Shown here: positions 3 through 58,372 of the stretch, piece by piece
Position numbering within the stretch: the stretch's first letter is position 1
How the letters are laid out: every line of letters begins with the position of its first letter
DNA from: Janibacter endophyticus
GTDB taxonomy: Bacteria > Actinomycetota > Actinomycetes > Actinomycetales > Dermatophilaceae
DNA: 64,000 bases
Reading direction: 5' to 3'
Assembly (NCBI RefSeq): GCF_016888335.1
Contig: NZ_JAFEJG010000004.1
Coordinates: 2,356,001-2,420,000, forward strand
Notes under the pieces: model-generated
Told to the model about the DNA's origin: nothing
The model's database searches: none
What the model saw: only the letters and a program-made list of their open reading frames with translations
Position numbers and translations under genes: made by a program

Positions 3-800
3 CGGATCGTCGGCAACGGCTCGTGGGAGCTCTGGCACGCCGGCATCCCCTTCCTCCGGGTCGACAACGGGCAGCCCGGGATGCCGCGCGACCTCATGGA
101 CCCGGACACCTTCATCGACACCCTCAAGCGGGTCTTCCCGAGGGCCTCCGCCGATGACGCGCAGGCGATCTGGGGCATGGCCGAGGCGTGCACCCGCCAG
201 ATGCACGGGACGATGCTCGTCGTCCACCCGGACGCCGAGGCCGAGGGGCAGCGGCTGCTCCCCCAGGCGCACACGATCAGCCCGACCCGCCTGGGGCCGC
301 GTGCCTTCACGACCCTGACGAACATCGACGGCGCCGTCCTCGTCTCCCCCGACGGGCTGACCCACGCGGTCGGGGTCATCCTCGACGGCGAGGCCACCGG
401 CACCGGCGACTCCTCGCGCGGCGCCCGCTACAACTCCGCGATCCGCTACCTCGCCGGCAACGGCAAGGGCTCGATGGTCATCATCGTCAGCGAGGACGGC
501 AAGATCGACCTCCTGCCCAAGCTCATGCGCCGGGTCCGCCGCACGACGGTCCAGCGCGCCGTCGACCGGCTCGTCGCCTCGGCGGAGGACGGCGACTCCT
601 ACGAGAAGTTCGCCCGCCTCGACCGCACCTGCGAGCTGCTCGAGTTCTACCTCAACCAGGAGCAGTGCAACCTCGTCAACGACGCCCGGGAGGCCGTGGA
701 GCAGCGCCGCTGGGAGGAGGAGCGGGTGCGCCTGCAGGTCGTGCCCGTCCAGCCCCACCCGGCCATGGACGACAGCTACTTCATCGAGCCGGTCGCCTGA
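3..800 (+). CDS. DisA_N (diadenylate cyclase-like) domain protein, 5' partial
   Basis: The frame is open from base 3, so the true start lies left of the window. A DAC-like core is visible: DGAVLVSPDG at about visible residue 109 and SRGARYNSAIRYL about 30 residues later. These match the positions of the DGA and RHR motifs of DisA/CdaA-type enzymes, which make c-di-AMP from two ATP. The RHR triad reads RYN here, so synthesis is not assured and nucleotide sensing is possible. The C-terminal ~80 residues are charged and helical (EQRRWEEERVRL). The protein ends before an unrelated SDR gene with its own promoter. Domain call fairly firm; activity uncertain. Confidence 0.6.
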   Translation, partial: RIVGNGSWELWHAGIPFLRVDNGQPGMPRDLMDPDTFIDTLKRVFPRASADDAQAIWGMAEACTRQMHGTMLVVHPDAEAEGQRLLPQAHTISPTRLGPRAFTTLTNIDGAVLVSPDGLTHAVGVILDGEATGTGDSSRGARYNSAIRYLAGNGKGSMVIIVSEDGKIDLLPKLMRRVRRTTVQRAVDRLVASAEDGDSYEKFARLDRTCELLEFYLNQEQCNLVNDAREAVEQRRWEEERVRLQVVPVQPHPAMDDSYFIEPVA

Positions 801-18619: not shown

Positions 18620-18712
18620 CCTAGGTCATGAGTACCAGCGCCAAGCCCCGGCTCGCTGGTCGGCAACCCTCCTCCGCGGTGGGGTGCTCCGGGTGACGAC
18701 CTGGCCGGCGTG
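18620..18712 (+). ncRNA. SAM-IV riboswitch
   Basis: The RNA contains GGTCATGAGTACCAGCG, GGTCGGCAACCCTCC, CCGCGGTGGGGTGCTCCGGG and a closing GACGACCTGG, which match the conserved core of the actinobacterial SAM-IV class closely. A -10 candidate TAGTGT (18609-18614) places transcription start about where the aptamer begins. The ~64 nt between aptamer and GTG start can fold back, but I cannot tell transcriptional from translational control. High S-adenosylmethionine would be expected to switch the downstream gene off. Confidence 0.9.
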
Positions 18713-18775
18713 CGCACGCACCTCGGCAAGCGCGGACCCGTCGCAGTGCTGGGTCCACAGGACCAAGGAGCACAC

Positions 18776-52444: not shown

Positions 52445-52585
52445 CGTCGTCGCGCGAGCGGCGGCACTGCCACGCCCAGGGGAAGCCGGTGAGACTCCGG
52501 CGCTGACCCGCAACCGTGAGCCCGAGGCCTCCCCAAGGAGGCAGGGCGAGCCGGAGCACCTGACGTGAGCGAGGCTCCACACCAC
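52445..52585 (+). ncRNA. cobalamin riboswitch
   Basis: The conserved core AAGCCGGTGAGACTCCGG (52483-52500), then GCTGACCCGCAACCGTGAG (52502-52520), and the 3' B12 box AGCCGGAGCACCTGACG (52549-52565) are all present in order. Transcription probably starts just upstream at TAGACT. About 80 nt separate the aptamer from the ATG at 52665, and no obvious terminator is seen, so translational control is likely. Adenosyl- or other cobalamin would shut the operon off. Confidence 0.95.
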
Positions 52586-52664
52586 CCGTCGCGGACCGCG
52601 GGTCGAGCCCAGACGCGATGAGCGCCCGGGCGTGGCACCAGTCCCAGCCCAGAGAGGCGCTCTC

Positions 52665-53930
52665 ATGCGTACCACCCCCATCGCCACGGCCGTCAGCGCG
52701 ACCGCGCTCGCGCTCGCCCCCGTCGCCCTGGCCACCCCGGCCCTGGCGAGCACCCCCGAGACCACCCCGGCACACTCCGCCGCCTACCTCGCCACCCAGC
52801 TCGCCGCCACCGACGGCGTGCTGCAGGTCGAGGCCGGCGGGCAGACCTACGACGACTGGGGGGTGACGATCGACGCCGTCCTCGCGATCCAGTCGACGCG
52901 CACCGCCGACACCCAGGCCGCCGCCTCCGCTCAGCGGGTGCTCGACAACGCCGGGTCCTACACGGGCTCGGGCTACGGCGACCTCTACGCCGGCTCGACC
53001 GGCAAGCTGCTCGTGCTCACCGCCTCCCGCGGGCTCCCGACGACGGTCGGCGGCACCGACTACCTCGCCGGGCTCCAGGGCCTGGAGCAGGAGAACGGGC
53101 ACTTCGCCGACCAGAGCGCCTACGGCGACTACTCGAACTCGCTGAGCCAGTCCTTCGCCCTCATCGGCCTCAAGCGCAACGGCGTCAACCCCTCGACCGC
53201 GTCCGTCGGGTTCCTCCTCGAGCAGCAGTGCGCCGACGGCGGCTTCTCGCTCGAGTACAAGGACGGCTGCATCTCCGACCCCGACGCGACCTCGGTCGCC
53301 GTCCAGGCGCTCACGGCTGTCGGCGGGCAGGACGCCGCGATCGGCAGGGCCGCCGACTACCTCGTGACGCAGCAGGGAGCGCACGGCGGGGTCAACGGTG
53401 GCACGACGACCGAGGGCCCGAACGCGAACAGCACCGGACTCGCCGCCGTCGCGCTGCGCCTCGCCGGGCGCACCGACGCGCTGGCCTCGGCCCGCGGCTA
53501 CCTCGCGAGCGTGACCTTCGGCTGCGAGCACACGCACCTCGCCGCCGGGATCGCCTACGACGTCTCGTCCTTCGAGTCTGCCGCGACGGACGCCCCGGCC
53601 AGCGACCACGTCAACCGGACGACGGCGCAGGCCCTCATCGGTCTCACCGACGTCTCCTACGTCGACGTGTCCGCCGCCGGCGCCAGCGGTGCGGCCGTCG
53701 CGCTCGAGTGCGACGACGCGCCGACGCCGACGCCGACGACCTCGGACGACGACAGCACCCCCACCGCCACCCCGACGGCGACCACCGAGCCGAAGATCCC
53801 CGCCGAGGTCCGCACCGACTCCTACCAGGGCCCCCCCGCCACGCTGGTCGCCGGGCTCGTCGCGCTCGGCGCGCTCCTCGGTGGCGGCCTGCTCGTCGCC
53901 GTGCGCCGCGAGGGTGGCGCGCACCGGTGA
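52665..53930 (+). CDS. secreted, membrane-anchored alpha/alpha-toroid protein (candidate B12-capture half)
   Basis: 421 residues. Signal peptide to about residue 29 (ALALAPVALATPALAS). Residues 40-330 show toroid repeats of the prenyltransferase/terpene cyclase-like type: AAYLATQLAATDGVL, VGFLLEQQCADGGFSLEY, YLVTQQGAHGGVNGG, ALRLAGRTDALASARGYLAS. Intrinsic factor and transcobalamin have this fold as their N-terminal domain. A Thr/Pro-rich stalk (PTPTPTTSDDDSTPTATP) leads to a C-terminal TM helix and RR end, so it is displayed on the cell surface. First gene after the cobalamin riboswitch; GTGA overlap with the next. B12 binding is inferred. Confidence 0.85.
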   Translation: MRTTPIATAVSATALALAPVALATPALASTPETTPAHSAAYLATQLAATDGVLQVEAGGQTYDDWGVTIDAVLAIQSTRTADTQAAASAQRVLDNAGSYTGSGYGDLYAGSTGKLLVLTASRGLPTTVGGTDYLAGLQGLEQENGHFADQSAYGDYSNSLSQSFALIGLKRNGVNPSTASVGFLLEQQCADGGFSLEYKDGCISDPDATSVAVQALTAVGGQDAAIGRAADYLVTQQGAHGGVNGGTTTEGPNANSTGLAAVALRLAGRTDALASARGYLASVTFGCEHTHLAAGIAYDVSSFESAATDAPASDHVNRTTAQALIGLTDVSYVDVSAAGASGAAVALECDDAPTPTPTTSDDDSTPTATPTATTEPKIPAEVRTDSYQGPPATLVAGLVALGALLGGGLLVAVRREGGAHR

Positions 53931-54820
53931 CCTCCCTGCGCCACCGGAGCGTCCGGCTCGCCGCGGCGACCGTCGTCCTCGCCGGGGCCGCCGTCGCGGC
54001 CCCGGCGACGGCGCACGCCGCCGCCTGCCCCTCGACCTCCGCCGGCGTCACCGTCGTCGTCGGCGGCGCCGTGCGGTGTGCACCCGGCAGCCCGGGGAGC
54101 GCCGGTGCGGCGCTCGACGCGGCCGGCTTCTCCGTCACGCGGGTCCAGCGGTTCCCGGCGGCGATCTGCCGGATCGACGGCGCGCCCGCCAACGACCCGT
54201 GCGTCATGATGCCGCCGGCGAACGCGTACTGGTCGGTGTGGTCGGCCTCGCGCGGCGGGTCGTGGAGCTACAGCTCGACGGGGGCCTACTCCCTCGGTGC
54301 GGCACCGGGCTCGGTCGTCGGCTTCGCCTTCGGGGCGGGCTCTCCCCCGGCGGTCGCCCCTCCCGCGGCACCGGCACCACCGCCTCCCCCACCGCCGTCC
54401 ACCACCCAGGCCCCCCGTCCGACCGCCACGGCGTCGCCGCGGCCGACGGCCACGGCCCGCCCGGGCGCCCCGGCCCCGTCGTCCACGGCGGCCGGGCCCG
54501 GGTCCACCCGCACCAGCGCAGCGGCCACCCCTACGTCCAGCGCGCCGGCGTCCTCCTCGTCGGCGGGGTCGTCGACCTCGACGAAGGGGTCGACCACGCG
54601 GTCGCCCTCGACGTCCAGCTCGTCGTCCGGGACGTCCTCGTCGACCTCGGCAGCGGCTGGGCCGACCTCCGCCGGGACCCCGAGCGCCGCCTCCCGGGGC
54701 GGGTCGGCGACGCCGGACGAGGGCCGCAACGCGGTCGCACCGGCCCTCGCCGGGGCCGGCGTGCTCGCGGCGCTCGCGGGTGCCGGCGTGCTCGTCGCGC
54801 GCCGTCGCCGGCTCGACTGA
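53927..54820 (+). CDS. secreted DUF4430 (transcobalamin C-terminal-like) protein, membrane-anchored
   Basis: 297 residues. Signal peptide ends near AAPATAHAA (about residue 32). Residues 35-140 form the DUF4430 domain: SAGAALDAAGFSVTRVQRF, CRIDGAPANDPC, PPANAYWSVWSA, SWSYSSTGA, APGSVVGFAFG. This is the beta domain that covers cobalamin in intrinsic factor and transcobalamin. A long Pro then Ser/Thr stalk (140-265) and a TM helix with RRRR hold it at the surface. It is translated with the toroid protein, so the two probably form one binding site. Confidence 0.88.
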   Translation: MTSLRHRSVRLAAATVVLAGAAVAAPATAHAAACPSTSAGVTVVVGGAVRCAPGSPGSAGAALDAAGFSVTRVQRFPAAICRIDGAPANDPCVMMPPANAYWSVWSASRGGSWSYSSTGAYSLGAAPGSVVGFAFGAGSPPAVAPPAAPAPPPPPPPSTTQAPRPTATASPRPTATARPGAPAPSSTAAGPGSTRTSAAATPTSSAPASSSSAGSSTSTKGSTTRSPSTSSSSSGTSSSTSAAAGPTSAGTPSAASRGGSATPDEGRNAVAPALAGAGVLAALAGAGVLVARRRRLD

Positions 54821-54831
54821 CCCTGCGCGCC

Positions 54832-55929
54832 ATGCCGTCGCCCTCGGTCGCCCGCGCCCTCCACCCGGGGGCGTGGTGGCTGTGGGCGATCGGCATGGCG
54901 GCGGCGGTGTCGATGACGACGAACCCGCTGCTGCTGCTCATCGCGGTCGCCGTGCTCACCCTCGTCGTCGTCAGCCGCCGGACCAGCACCCCGTGGGCGC
55001 GGGCCTTCCGGCTCTACGGGTGGCTCGGTGTCTTCATCGTCGTGCTGCGGCTCGTGCTGCACGTCCTCGTCGGGCTCAAGTGGGGCGAGCACACGCTCGT
55101 GGCCCTGCCGACCGTCACCCTGCCGTCGTGGGCGTCGGGGATCGACGTGCTCGGCACGGTGCGGCTCGAGGGACTGCTCGCGGCGGGCTTCGAGGGCCTG
55201 CGGCTCGCGACGATGATCCTGTGCATCGGCGCGGCCAACGCCCTGGCCAACCCCAAGCGGCTGCTCGCCGCGCTACCCGGAGCGCTCCACGAGATCGGCG
55301 CCGCCGTCGTCGTCGCGATCACCGTCGCGCCGCAGCTCGCCGAGTCGGTGCAGCGGGTGGTTCGGGCGAGGCGGCTGCGCGGCGACGGGGTCGGCGGGCT
55401 CAAGGCCTTCCGACGGGTCGCGATGCCGGTGCTGCAGGACACCCTCGACCGCTCCCTCATGCTCGCCTCGGCCATGGACTCTCGGGGCTACGGCCGGCGG
55501 GCCGACGCGACCCCTGGGCAGCGGGCGCTCACGTCCACGCTGACCCTCGTCGGGCTCATGGCGACGAGCGTCGGGCTCTACGGCCTGCTCGACACCACTG
55601 CGCCCCGCTGGCTCGGGGTCCCGCTGCTCGTGGGCGGCCTCGGGCTCGGTGCCGTCGGCATCGTCGTGGGCAGCCGGACCGTGCGCCGGACGGTCTACCG
55701 CCCCGACCCGTGGCGGGCCCCTGAGCTCCTCACGATCGTGTGCGGCGTCGTCGCCGCGGCCGCCCTCGTCGCCACCGCGCGCACCAGCCCGGACGGGCTG
55801 AGCATGCCGCTCCAGCCGCTCGGCCCCCCGCCGCTGCCGCTGATGGCGACCCTCGGACTGCTCGTCGGAGCCCTGCCCGCCGTCCTCACCCCTGAGCCCC
55901 CGACCCACCGCGAGCGAGCTGCCCGATGA
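54832..55929 (+). CDS. ecfT: ECF transporter T component (CbiQ/EcfT family)
   Basis: 365 residues, larger than typical EcfT because of three extra C-terminal helices. N-terminal helices (LLLLIAVAVLTLVVV), then the coupling helices with RARRLRGDG near residue 178 and SAMDSRGYGRRAD near 212, the two Arg motifs that contact the ATPases. It links the S component to the ATPase in energy-coupling-factor importers. Starts 11 bp after the DUF4430 gene; overlaps ecfA by 4 bp. Confidence 0.9.
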   Translation: MPSPSVARALHPGAWWLWAIGMAAAVSMTTNPLLLLIAVAVLTLVVVSRRTSTPWARAFRLYGWLGVFIVVLRLVLHVLVGLKWGEHTLVALPTVTLPSWASGIDVLGTVRLEGLLAAGFEGLRLATMILCIGAANALANPKRLLAALPGALHEIGAAVVVAITVAPQLAESVQRVVRARRLRGDGVGGLKAFRRVAMPVLQDTLDRSLMLASAMDSRGYGRRADATPGQRALTSTLTLVGLMATSVGLYGLLDTTAPRWLGVPLLVGGLGLGAVGIVVGSRTVRRTVYRPDPWRAPELLTIVCGVVAAAALVATARTSPDGLSMPLQPLGPPPLPLMATLGLLVGALPAVLTPEPPTHRERAAR

Positions 55930-57566
55930 TCCTCTTCGACCACGTGAGCGTCACCTACGACGGAGCGCCCGAGCCGACGCTGCGGGACGTCTCCTTCGAG
56001 GTCGACGAGGGCGAGCTCGTCCTCGTCGTCGGCCGCACCGGCTCGGGCAAGTCCACGCTGCTCGGCGCGATCAACGGCACCGTCCCCCACTTCACCGGCG
56101 GCACCCTCGCCGGCCGGGTCACCGTCGCCGGGCGCGACACCCGCGACCACCGTCCCCGAGACCTCGCCGACGTCGTCGGCGTCGTCGGGCAGGACCCGCT
56201 CGCCGGCTTCGTCACCGACACCGTCGAGACCGAGCTCGCCTACGGCATGGAGCAGCTCGCCCTGCCGGCCGCCACGATGCGCAAGCGGGTCGAGGAGACC
56301 CTCGACGTCCTCGGCATCGCCGACCTGCGCGACGCGCCGCTGCGCGACCTCTCCGGCGGGCAGCAGCAGCGCGTCGCGATCGGCTCGGTCCTCACCATCC
56401 ACCCTCGCGTGCTCGTCCTCGACGAGCCGACCTCCGCCCTCGACCCCACGGGTGCCGAGGAGGTCCTCGCCGCGATCACCCGGCTCGTCCACGACCTCGC
56501 GACGACGGTCGTCATCGCCGAGCACCGCATCGAGCGGGTCGTCCAGTACGCCGACTCGGTCATCCACGTCGCGGACGACCGTGCGGCCCACGGGGACCCG
56601 GCGACGCTCATGGCAGACGCCACCGTCGCTCCCCCGGTCGTCGAGCTCGGCCGGCTCGCCGGCTGGACCCCGCTCCCGCTCTCGGTGCGCGACGCCCGCC
56701 GCCGGGCGGCCCCCCTTCGCTCCGCCCTCGCCGAGGTGAGCCCGAAGGCCCCCGAGGTCACCCCTTCGTCCGGGTCGCCGGCGCTCGACGCCCGAGGGGT
56801 CGTCGTCCGCTACGGACGGCTCGTCGCGGTCAAGGGCGTCGACCTCACCCTCGAGCCGGGCACGGTCACCGCGCTCATGGGACGGAACGGGTGCGGCAAG
56901 TCGTCGTTGCTGTGGGCGCTCCAGGGCTCCGGGGCCCGGGCCGAAGGGGTGGTCCGCGTCGCGCGGTCCGGCGCGGCGGGCGAGCCGGACCCGGCGTCGT
57001 TGCCCGCCGCCGAGCGACGCGCCCTCGTCGGGATGGTCCCGCAGACCGCGAGCGACCTGCTCTACCTTGACACCGTCGACGCCGAGTGCGCCCAGGCCGA
57101 CGCGGAGTCCGGCTCCCCCGCCGGGACGTGCGCGGCCCTCCTCGAGCGCCTCGCACCCGGCATCCCCGGCGACCGGCACCCGCGCGACCTCTCCGAGGGG
57201 CAGCGGCTCTCGCTCGTCCTCGCGATCCAGCTCACGGCGCAGCCGCCCGTCATCCTGCTCGACGAGCCGACCCGCGGGCTCGACTACACCGCCAAGGCCG
57301 CGCTGCGTGACATCGTCCACGACCTCGCCGCCCAGGGACGGACCGTGCTGCTGTCGACGCACGACGTGGAGTTCGTCGCCGAGACCGCCGCCCGGGTCGT
57401 CGTCATGGCCGAGGGCGAGGTCGTCGCGGACGGTCCGACCGCGGACGTCGTCGTCTCGTCCCCCGCCTTCGCGCCGCAGGTCGCGAAGATCATGGCGCCG
57501 CAGCGCTGGCTCACGGTCGACGAGGTGCGGGATGCCCTGCGCGGCAACGGGATCGGGCTGCCGTGA
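55926..57566 (+). CDS. ecfA: ECF transporter double ATPase (EcfA1-EcfA2 fusion)
   Basis: 546 residues with two ABC ATPase domains in one chain. Domain 1: Walker A GRTGSGKS near residue 36, signature LSGGQQQR near 142, Walker B VLVLDEPTSALD. Domain 2 (from about 285): Walker A GRNGCGKSS near 319, signature LSEGQRLS near 422, Walker B VILLDEPTRGLD. It powers vitamin import with EcfT and the S component. The signature Gly-Gly of domain 2 reads EG, a common asymmetry. Its stop overlaps the S-component gene. Confidence 0.93.
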   Translation: MILFDHVSVTYDGAPEPTLRDVSFEVDEGELVLVVGRTGSGKSTLLGAINGTVPHFTGGTLAGRVTVAGRDTRDHRPRDLADVVGVVGQDPLAGFVTDTVETELAYGMEQLALPAATMRKRVEETLDVLGIADLRDAPLRDLSGGQQQRVAIGSVLTIHPRVLVLDEPTSALDPTGAEEVLAAITRLVHDLATTVVIAEHRIERVVQYADSVIHVADDRAAHGDPATLMADATVAPPVVELGRLAGWTPLPLSVRDARRRAAPLRSALAEVSPKAPEVTPSSGSPALDARGVVVRYGRLVAVKGVDLTLEPGTVTALMGRNGCGKSSLLWALQGSGARAEGVVRVARSGAAGEPDPASLPAAERRALVGMVPQTASDLLYLDTVDAECAQADAESGSPAGTCAALLERLAPGIPGDRHPRDLSEGQRLSLVLAIQLTAQPPVILLDEPTRGLDYTAKAALRDIVHDLAAQGRTVLLSTHDVEFVAETAARVVVMAEGEVVADGPTADVVVSSPAFAPQVAKIMAPQRWLTVDEVRDALRGNGIGLP

Positions 57567-58372
57567 TGAGCCGCGCCCAGGCCATCCGGCTGCGGCCCCG
57601 CTCGGCCGCGGCGATCGCGCTCACCTCGGTCGTCGGCGTGCTCGCCTTCGGCTGGCCGCTCATCGTCTCGCCCGACGCCGCCGTCGCCCACAACGGTGAC
57701 GCACCGCTGATCTTCGCCCTGCTGCTGCCGCTCGTCCTCGGGGTCGTGCTCGCCGAGGTCTCCGAGGGTGGCCTCGACGTCAAGGCCGTGGCGATGCTCG
57801 GCGTCCTCTCCGCCGTCGGGGCGGTGCTCCGGCCGATGGGCGCCGGGGCGGGCGGGCTGGAGACGGTGTTCTTCATGCTCGTGCTCGCGGGCCGGGTCTT
57901 CGGGCCCGGCTTCGGCTTCGTCCTCGGCATCACGACGCTCTTCGCGTCGGCGCTGCTCACCGCCGGGGTCGGGCCGTGGCTGCCCTTCCAGATGCTCGGG
58001 GCGGCCTGGGTCGGCCTCGGCGCCGGGCTGCTGCCCCGGGCGCAGGGGCGGGCCGAGGTGGCGATGCTCGCGGCCTACGGCGCGGTGTCGGCGCTGCTCT
58101 ACGGGGTGGCGCTGAACTTCTCCTTCTGGCCCTTCACGATCCAGGGCGAGGGGTCGATCGCCTTCGTCCCCGGCGCGCCCGTGCTCGAGAACCTCCAGCG
58201 CTTCATGGTCTTCTCCGTGTCGACGTCCTTCGGCTGGGACATCGGCCGGGCGCTGACCAACGTCGTGCTCATCGGCCTCACCGGCCGGGCCGTGCTCGGC
58301 GCGCTGCGCCGGGCCTCGCGCAAGGCGGCCTTCGACGCGCCGGTCCGCTTCGAGGAGCGCGTGCCGCGCTGA
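57566..58372 (+). CDS. ECF transporter substrate-binding (S) component
   Basis: 268 residues, six or more hydrophobic helices: ALTSVVGVLAFGWPLIV, LIFALLLPLVLGVVLAEV, AVAMLGVLSAVGAVLRPMGAG, ETVFFMLVLAGRVFGPGFGFVLG, LPFQMLGAAWVGLGAGLLP and others. The GRVFGPGFGFVLGITTLFASALLTAGVGPW segment, spanning two helices, is typical of EcfS proteins that accompany CbiQ-like T components. Regulation by cobalamin and the B12-binding-like partners make a corrinoid the likely substrate. The GTG at 57563 is an alternative start. A CbrA/CbrT-like role is inference. Confidence 0.82.
   Translation: MSRAQAIRLRPRSAAAIALTSVVGVLAFGWPLIVSPDAAVAHNGDAPLIFALLLPLVLGVVLAEVSEGGLDVKAVAMLGVLSAVGAVLRPMGAGAGGLETVFFMLVLAGRVFGPGFGFVLGITTLFASALLTAGVGPWLPFQMLGAAWVGLGAGLLPRAQGRAEVAMLAAYGAVSALLYGVALNFSFWPFTIQGEGSIAFVPGAPVLENLQRFMVFSVSTSFGWDIGRALTNVVLIGLTGRAVLGALRRASRKAAFDAPVRFEERVPR

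Follow-up and report, generated by a model that had tools for sequence, protein, structure and literature searches.

The five tightly packed genes discussed here lie directly downstream of a cobalamin (vitamin B12) riboswitch at positions 52479-58372 of a stretch of 64,000 nucleotides from the genome of Janibacter endophyticus, which is called the window below. The aptamer core of the riboswitch is located on the plus strand at 52479..52561 and matched RF00174 with 34.5 bits (E 4.6e-05), above the gathering threshold of 31.5. Across 22 aligned leaders, the window included, 33 columns are invariant. The first gene starts after a spacing of 103 bases, and all five genes are encoded on the same strand, overlapping by 4 bases at three junctions and leaving a gap of 11 bases ahead of the third gene, EcfT. 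An earlier note on this DNA had read the stretch as a cobalamin riboswitch followed by overlapping or closely spaced genes, and this layout was borne out.

Surface proteins and importer of the operon

The first gene (52665..53930) encodes a protein of 421 amino acids with a signal-peptide-like N-terminus, an alpha/alpha toroid, a stalk that is Thr/Pro-rich by eye, and a C-terminal transmembrane anchor. Its hydropathy peaks at residues 6 (N-terminus) and 395 (C-terminal stretch, with a basic tail). The second gene (53927..54820, GTG start) encodes 297 amino acids with the same architecture built around a transcobalamin-type beta-grasp domain: the hydropathy peaks are at residues 11 (N-terminus) and 273 (C-terminal stretch), the stalk is long, of low complexity and rich in Pro, Thr and Ser (by eye), and the anchor carries RRRR. 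A match of this protein to GVDTG_CTERM was weak (19.7 bits, under the cut-off of 29). Thus, both proteins carry the signals at both ends for the export and membrane anchoring that had been proposed for them.

The remaining three genes encode an importer of the energy-coupling factor (ECF) type. EcfT (CbiQ family, 54832..55929) matched PF02361 with 42.6 bits (E 7.1e-11, cut-off 25), and EcfA (55926..57566) contains two ATP-binding domains in one chain of 546 amino acids. Its two stretches matching PF00005, the ABC_tran family (E 2.3e-48), provide the ATPase pair of an ECF transporter; with TIGR04521 and TIGR04520 it reached 263.5 and 261.7 bits, under the cut-offs of both. The predicted neighbourhood of EcfT and EcfA with the two surface proteins is confirmed by these Pfam matches. 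The last gene (57563..58372) encodes an S-component-like membrane protein, which is a candidate S component: 15 of the 19 aligned members (window included) matched PF12822 at E <= 0.01, the best at 6.3e-12, whereas the window protein reached 28.7 bits, 2 bits under the cut-off of 30.7. Its other matches were generic, being weak and of the folate and riboflavin type, and no CbiM match was found. Sequence searches of the PDB with the single proteins, the beta profile and the S profile gave nothing useful.

Modelled folds of both surface proteins match the mammalian B12 carriers

The toroid domain (52755..53723) was modelled with AlphaFold2 from an alignment of 89 natural sequences, using 88 of the 101 toroids of the named loci described below, and reached a predicted local distance difference test score (pLDDT) of 96.6 and a predicted template modelling score (pTM) of 0.94. 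The model and its fold matches, with Z 20.8 to rat transcobalamin (8ixt, 27..326) and Z 20.7 to intrinsic factor (3kq4, 31..299), confirmed the alpha/alpha toroid that had been suspected in the first protein. By sequence, the single protein stayed under the Pfam Prenyltrans cut-off (E 0.0037), the family profile matched squalene-hopene cyclase at 2e-30, and the NCBIfam model SCO2321_fam (NF053823) was matched with 84 bits, far under its equivalog cut-off of 300. The most conserved stretches of the toroids are GDYSN, SDPDAT, N-NSTG and ATAQ; they may line a corrinoid pocket.

The beta-grasp domain (54011..54370) was modelled from 87 natural sequences, using 86 of the 97 beta domains of the named loci, with a pLDDT of 90.7 and a pTM of 0.85. 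Strands at residues 12-17 and 20-25 are followed by a helix (31-37), a hairpin (strands 42-44 and 52-55) and further strands at 74-80, 86-88 and 101-107, an arrangement that agrees with the beta-grasp domain of the carrier family, where the helix is likewise followed by an inserted hairpin. A second structure aligner compared the model with 168 chains ranked by Foldseek. Among its 15 best solved entries (Z 7.8-9.0), 14 were transcobalamin, haptocorrin or intrinsic factor, with Z 9.0 to 5no0 and 5np4 (310..408) and Z 7.9 to intrinsic factor 3kq4 (309..417). The remaining one was 3u7z, a Ruminococcus gnavus protein which we take to be a DUF4430 protein. The next fold, a MoaD relative, followed at Z 5.2.

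The two models cover complementary parts of the mammalian carriers, the toroid 31-299 and the beta domain 309-417 of 3kq4, and 27-326 and 329-427 of 8ixt, respectively, and the two adjoining genes thus together match what a mammalian carrier has in a single chain.

Three results have to be set against this fold assignment. Foldseek itself returned a best E of 0.13 for the beta model and nothing under 0.001, thus the claim draws on the second aligner and on the origin of its top rows from one family. Terpene cyclases scored higher with the toroid model than transcobalamin did (Z up to 24.8 versus 20.8). Finally, the earlier note had called the second protein a DUF4430 protein, and in HMMER searches none of 33 members of the beta family matched PF14478 (DUF4430) at E <= 1; the host genome also contained no match. 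As a sequence label the Pfam family was consequently rejected, but a relationship is suggested by the fold and by profile comparison: with hhalign, 69 columns of the beta profile aligned, in the correct order, to the profile of 27 true DUF4430 domains (P 1.2e-4, probability 55%), and the control alignment of the toroid with the DUF4430 profile gave P 0.45. The cut locus L038 and 18 permuted loci were left out of alignment A1, and 27 of 30 DUF4430 loci were used in alignment A4.

Importer loci, toroid loci and natural rearrangements

Matches to the S protein were found in 63 of 117 genomes, its own included. From 54 of the 62 other genomes, 55 upstream regions were collected, and 51 of these (50 genomes) have an intact EcfT match and form the importer set. 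All 51 contain a homologue of the beta protein, detected with a profile started from the window's beta domain, and 23 contain a toroid (24 frames). Since L038 is cut by a contig end, 50 importer loci can be tested for neighbouring genes. In 198 genomes drawn evenly from the phylum, the beta profile had matches in 38. At three loci (L079-L081), a single frame of about 1000 codons contains the matches to EcfT, ATPase and S; it is preceded by a beta-grasp gene of 185-190 amino acids, and no riboswitch match was found there.

The toroid set consists of 79 named loci from a scan with the toroid alignment (the best 80 of 230). It was picked by toroid sequence only and shares some genomes with the importer set. 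Its loci include Janibacter, Phycicoccus, Dietzia, Marmoricola, Saccharothrix, Amycolatopsis, Micromonospora, Embleya and Streptomyces. A beta domain was located within 1.5 kb on the same strand for 86 of the 112 toroid frames of these loci, and EcfT was found downstream in 64 of the 79 loci.

In several genomes the two domains are fused. At L201:2906-4474 (genome G027; the same frame is present in L052) a toroid and a beta domain are encoded in one unbroken frame of 522 codons in the mammalian order, 104 bases downstream of a riboswitch match (2669-2801); the product has a signal-peptide-like start and, by eye, no C-terminal anchor. This was the only case with both domains in one chain and the toroid first, the arrangement of the carrier family, which in the window is distributed over two genes. 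The reverse fusion, beta and then toroid in one frame, was seen in L131, L139, L151 and L185. Tandem toroid matches in one frame occur at L148:3729-6650 and L185:10280-13213, the latter pair downstream of the beta domain in the same frame.

The halves of the beta domain are exchanged in 18 of the 50 importer loci (L060-L069 and L071-L078), all without a toroid, with an anchored product and with the gene placed before EcfT. In these proteins the profile of the C-terminal half matched first (E 1e-8 to 3e-12) and that of the N-terminal half second (E 1e-4 to 0.04 in 17, 0.62 in L073), and the canonical order was found in 32 of 32 complete canonical loci. Since the single matches of the N-terminal half are weak, the argument for a circular permutation lies in the constancy of the order. 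The three permuted proteins tested all matched the NCBIfam model SCO2322_fam (NF040672) with about 173 bits (cut-off 85), a model which the window's beta protein did not match. The toroid is permuted as well in two further genomes (L204:5428-6825 and L205:4706-6199) from a genus (g83) of the window's class, where profile positions 122-305 (121-310) lie ahead of 2-123 (2-111). In the adjoining beta genes the halves are also exchanged, although the N-half match falls short of significance (E 1.7 and 0.96). The riboswitch matches at these two loci are weak (23.8 and 26.9 bits). The sections of a beta-grasp review used here describe a circular permutation of the E1 UFD domain and none of the transcobalamin-type domain (PMC1949818). 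Decay was observed too: a sister Janibacter genome that has cobN (G002) retains only a relic of the operon, in which the riboswitch is followed immediately by what is left of the S gene (L070:6951-7600).

Association with cobalamin riboswitches

With all Rfam families at gathering thresholds, the 51 loci L031-L081 yielded 21 RF00174, 2 AdoCbl-II and 2 tRNA matches and nothing else. Riboswitches for other vitamins, which according to the earlier note would have spoken against a B12 function if they preceded these genes as often, were thus not seen in these loci. In the importer set, 46 of the 51 loci gave a match, on the strand of the operon, to a riboswitch model (R1) that was built from 22 leaders (the window and 21 loci) with a short calibration, and 25 of these 46 were outside the model set; the model missed L038 (contig end), L039 and L079-L081. 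In the toroid set, 99 of the 112 frames have an R1 match within 900 bases upstream of the toroid domain on the same strand. By chance about 0.04 such pairs would be expected, as calculated with rounded sizes from 251 RF00174 matches in the 351.6 Mb of 45 toroid-set genomes. The co-occurrence survey that had been suggested thus shows that cobalamin riboswitch matches precede most of these genes. In Amycolatopsis, back-to-back matches on opposite strands, about 85 bases apart, lie between two divergent toroid genes; such pairs are located at L148:6522-6872, L149:2261-2612 and L182:6510-6860.

DUF4430 genes from other classes of the phylum (30 loci) served as a control. In 20 of these loci (plus/minus 1.5 kb) Rfam detected no riboswitch, and in all 30 R1 found three matches, each upstream on the strand of the gene. 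The match in L112 is strong (42 bits), those in L106 (22.6 bits) and L101 (21.4 bits) are weak. Ordinary DUF4430 genes are therefore mostly not linked to B12, and the fold by itself does not imply B12, a point against the reading of the operon proposed below. Some DUF4430 members may nevertheless be B12-linked. The strong match (L112:2904-3102, minus strand) precedes an ordinary DUF4430 gene of another class at a distance of about 1.2 kb. In genomes of the control set (G155, G283 and G220), three more DUF4430 genes scored over the Pfam cut-off; they are part of gene runs like the one described here (L203, L202) or immediately follow a riboswitch (L208). In the latter (L208:6598-7287, minus strand), no toroid or ECF match is present within 12 kb.

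B12 physiology of the host

The host genome contains three further cobalamin riboswitch matches, two of them over the cut-off. One precedes cobN and one a CbiM gene (PF01891, 164 bits) by about 60 bases; the sub-threshold match precedes a ChlI/D-type cobaltochelatase gene, within a B12 biosynthesis cluster of the aerobic type (CobA, CobO, cobaltochelatase, CbiE/T, CobI/J, CobH, CobN). The host should therefore make B12, cobalt has its own riboswitch-led transporter, and the operon would serve for salvage. Among the 71 genomes of the window's family, the importer was found in 25 of 28 genomes without cobN versus 25 of 43 with cobN (Fisher p 0.007). The p value is 0.0018 if two decayed copies are counted as absent and 0.024 without six genomes that are less than 90% complete.

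The operon is flanked by ileS-like and valS-like genes, as judged by eye. Elsewhere in the window, a SAM-IV riboswitch was found on the plus strand at 18624-18738 (111 bits).

Proposed function and alternatives

We interpret the operon as a corrinoid scavenging system in which two surface chains clamp the ligand for import by the ECF transporter, and consider this reading probable (roughly 70%). When B12 is scarce, the riboswitch would permit expression of the operon. The toroid and the beta-grasp protein would be exported and remain outside the membrane, tethered by flexible stalks and C-terminal anchors. The beta-grasp protein would be the constant extracellular partner of the transporter and work with the S component, and in the clade of the window the toroid would supply the second half of a transcobalamin-like pocket. 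The two chains could then enclose a single corrinoid from opposite sides and hand it on to the S component, with ATP hydrolysis by EcfA driving import. The control element, the gene order, the folds, the export and anchor signals, the co-conservation and the fusions are features of the loci themselves; the ligand, the clamp, the hand-over, the direction of transport and the expression at low B12 are what we infer.

Several observations weigh against this interpretation. At Rfam thresholds only 23 of the 51 loci L031-L081 have a riboswitch and 28 have none. The S profile matched no solved chain at E under 0.46, and among the solved S components none was matched by the S protein in sequence. The host itself should make B12. 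The cobN statistics ignore kinship, and a missing cobN is no proof of missing B12 synthesis. Finally, a toroid gene is absent beside the importer in 27 of the 50 testable loci, and 26 of these 27 genomes (two of the 27 are under 90% complete) lack a full-length toroid altogether; one has a full-length toroid elsewhere (G029), and two other genomes have marginal partial matches. An obligate two-chain clamp therefore cannot be the mechanism of the whole family. Since the beta protein is present in every importer locus and the toroid is absent beside so many, the beta protein is the constant partner of the importer: beta protein and importer form the constant core, and the toroid is an optional second jaw. 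The two-chain counterpart of intrinsic factor proposed in the earlier note is thus supported in part, by both folds, their complementary coverage, the natural fusion and the riboswitch association, and weakened as a general mechanism by the frequent absence of the toroid.

The same distribution would fit a beta-grasp protein that is the corrinoid receptor on its own, with the toroid as an accessory, such as a separate capture protein or a second site, and never sharing one ligand with it. Consistent with this, the beta protein is found in 51 of 51 EcfT loci and the toroid in 23, nearly all toroid-less genomes are without a full-length copy, and conversely 9 of the 79 toroid loci have no adjoining beta domain, 8 of them with a riboswitch match before the toroid (some of these loci end at contig ends). 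Frames that join the domains in either order and the adjacency of the domains in 86 of 112 toroid cases speak, however, against independent binding, as does the mammalian precedent, in which cobalamin lies between the two domains (PMC1796856, in the part used here). We therefore regard a receptor of beta protein alone as unlikely, although it is the most serious competitor of the shared clamp.

Much less probable is that the system imports, under B12 control, cobalt, a lower-ligand base, a different cofactor or some other cargo that is not a corrinoid. A host that makes B12 could need a precursor instead, and the generic matches of the S protein (PF12822, weak folate and riboflavin types) would allow this. 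However, the beta domain most resembles dedicated B12 carriers, the importer is commonest where cobN is absent, and cobalt is provided for by the CbiM gene behind another riboswitch, whereas the S protein has no CbiM match.

Class II terpene cyclases carry the catalytic motif DxDD. The possibility that the toroid is an exported terpene cyclase-type enzyme unrelated to B12 binding can be dismissed, although its nearest folds and sequence profiles are terpene cyclases and the nearest NCBI model (SCO2321 family) is named after a locus tag only, because the fourth position of the motif is Asp in just 1 of 89 aligned toroids (the window reads SDPDAT) and because it is a single toroid, exported, with stalk and anchor, in a gene behind a B12 riboswitch.

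Beyond the window, the Actinomycetota possibly hold a large, nameless family of B12 receptors assembled from the two modules of intrinsic factor, which are freely shuffled (as two chains, fused in either order, duplicated, as beta only and circularly permuted), nearly always accompanied by a B12 riboswitch and usually by a dedicated ECF importer. For this joint claim, we see the odds as evenly balanced. If it is true, the single-chain mammalian carrier would be one fixed arrangement out of a modular kit of bacteria.

Comparison with known systems

The general idea of a toroid and a transcobalamin-type domain next to CbiO and CbiQ is not new, as it was put forward in 2007 for other phyla (PMC1796856). 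In the parts of that paper considered here, Burroughs et al. described a transcobalamin-like SLBB clade of secreted or surface proteins with toroid-beta fusions in either order and operons with CbiO- and CbiQ-like genes, and proposed that it scavenges B12. That clade comprises low-GC Gram-positives, planctomycetes and euryarchaea, whereas the window is from an actinobacterium; toroid and beta domain as two genes are not described in those parts; and its bacteria are usually without B12 synthesis, whereas the window's host has the genes for it. The text mentions no riboswitch, and the window's operon is riboswitch-led. In the open literature we found no paper on an actinobacterial operon of toroid, beta protein and ECF importer, on the riboswitch link or on beta-only or permuted forms; most subscription papers lay outside this search, and we therefore make no claim of priority.

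If the surface proteins bind corrinoids, the operon encodes an ECF importer with dedicated extracellular receptors of the human B12-carrier fold. The 2007 prediction becomes directly testable with two small soluble domains, and a natural split version of intrinsic factor is offered for binding studies. Moreover, a testable model of B12 capture by such actinobacteria results, and a function is suggested for two NCBI families that have only locus-tag names: SCO2321_fam (NF053823) and SCO2322_fam (NF040672) are models without a function which match the toroid and the permuted beta protein, respectively.

Mammalian intrinsic factor, transcobalamin and haptocorrin consist of the same two folds, and one bacterial homologue is fused in the same order. 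In contrast to these carriers, the window encodes two separately anchored chains in a bacterial operon with its own importer, the identity within the aligned beta domains is 11-19%, and B12 binding is predicted. ECF-CbrT from Lactobacillus delbrueckii likewise combines EcfT, ATPases and an S component for B12 import (PMC5997447). In the portion of that study used here, substrate binding by ECF importers is assigned to the S component in the membrane, no extracellular binding proteins are described, and the ECF module is shared among S components. In the window one gene run is dedicated to the system, and its S profile matches no solved chain at the E value given above. BtuG of Bacteroides is, like the proteins described here, a surface B12 receptor encoded next to B12 transport genes; according to the parts of the report used, it is a beta-propeller lipoprotein with the outer-membrane protein BtuB as partner and thus has another fold (PMC6143338).

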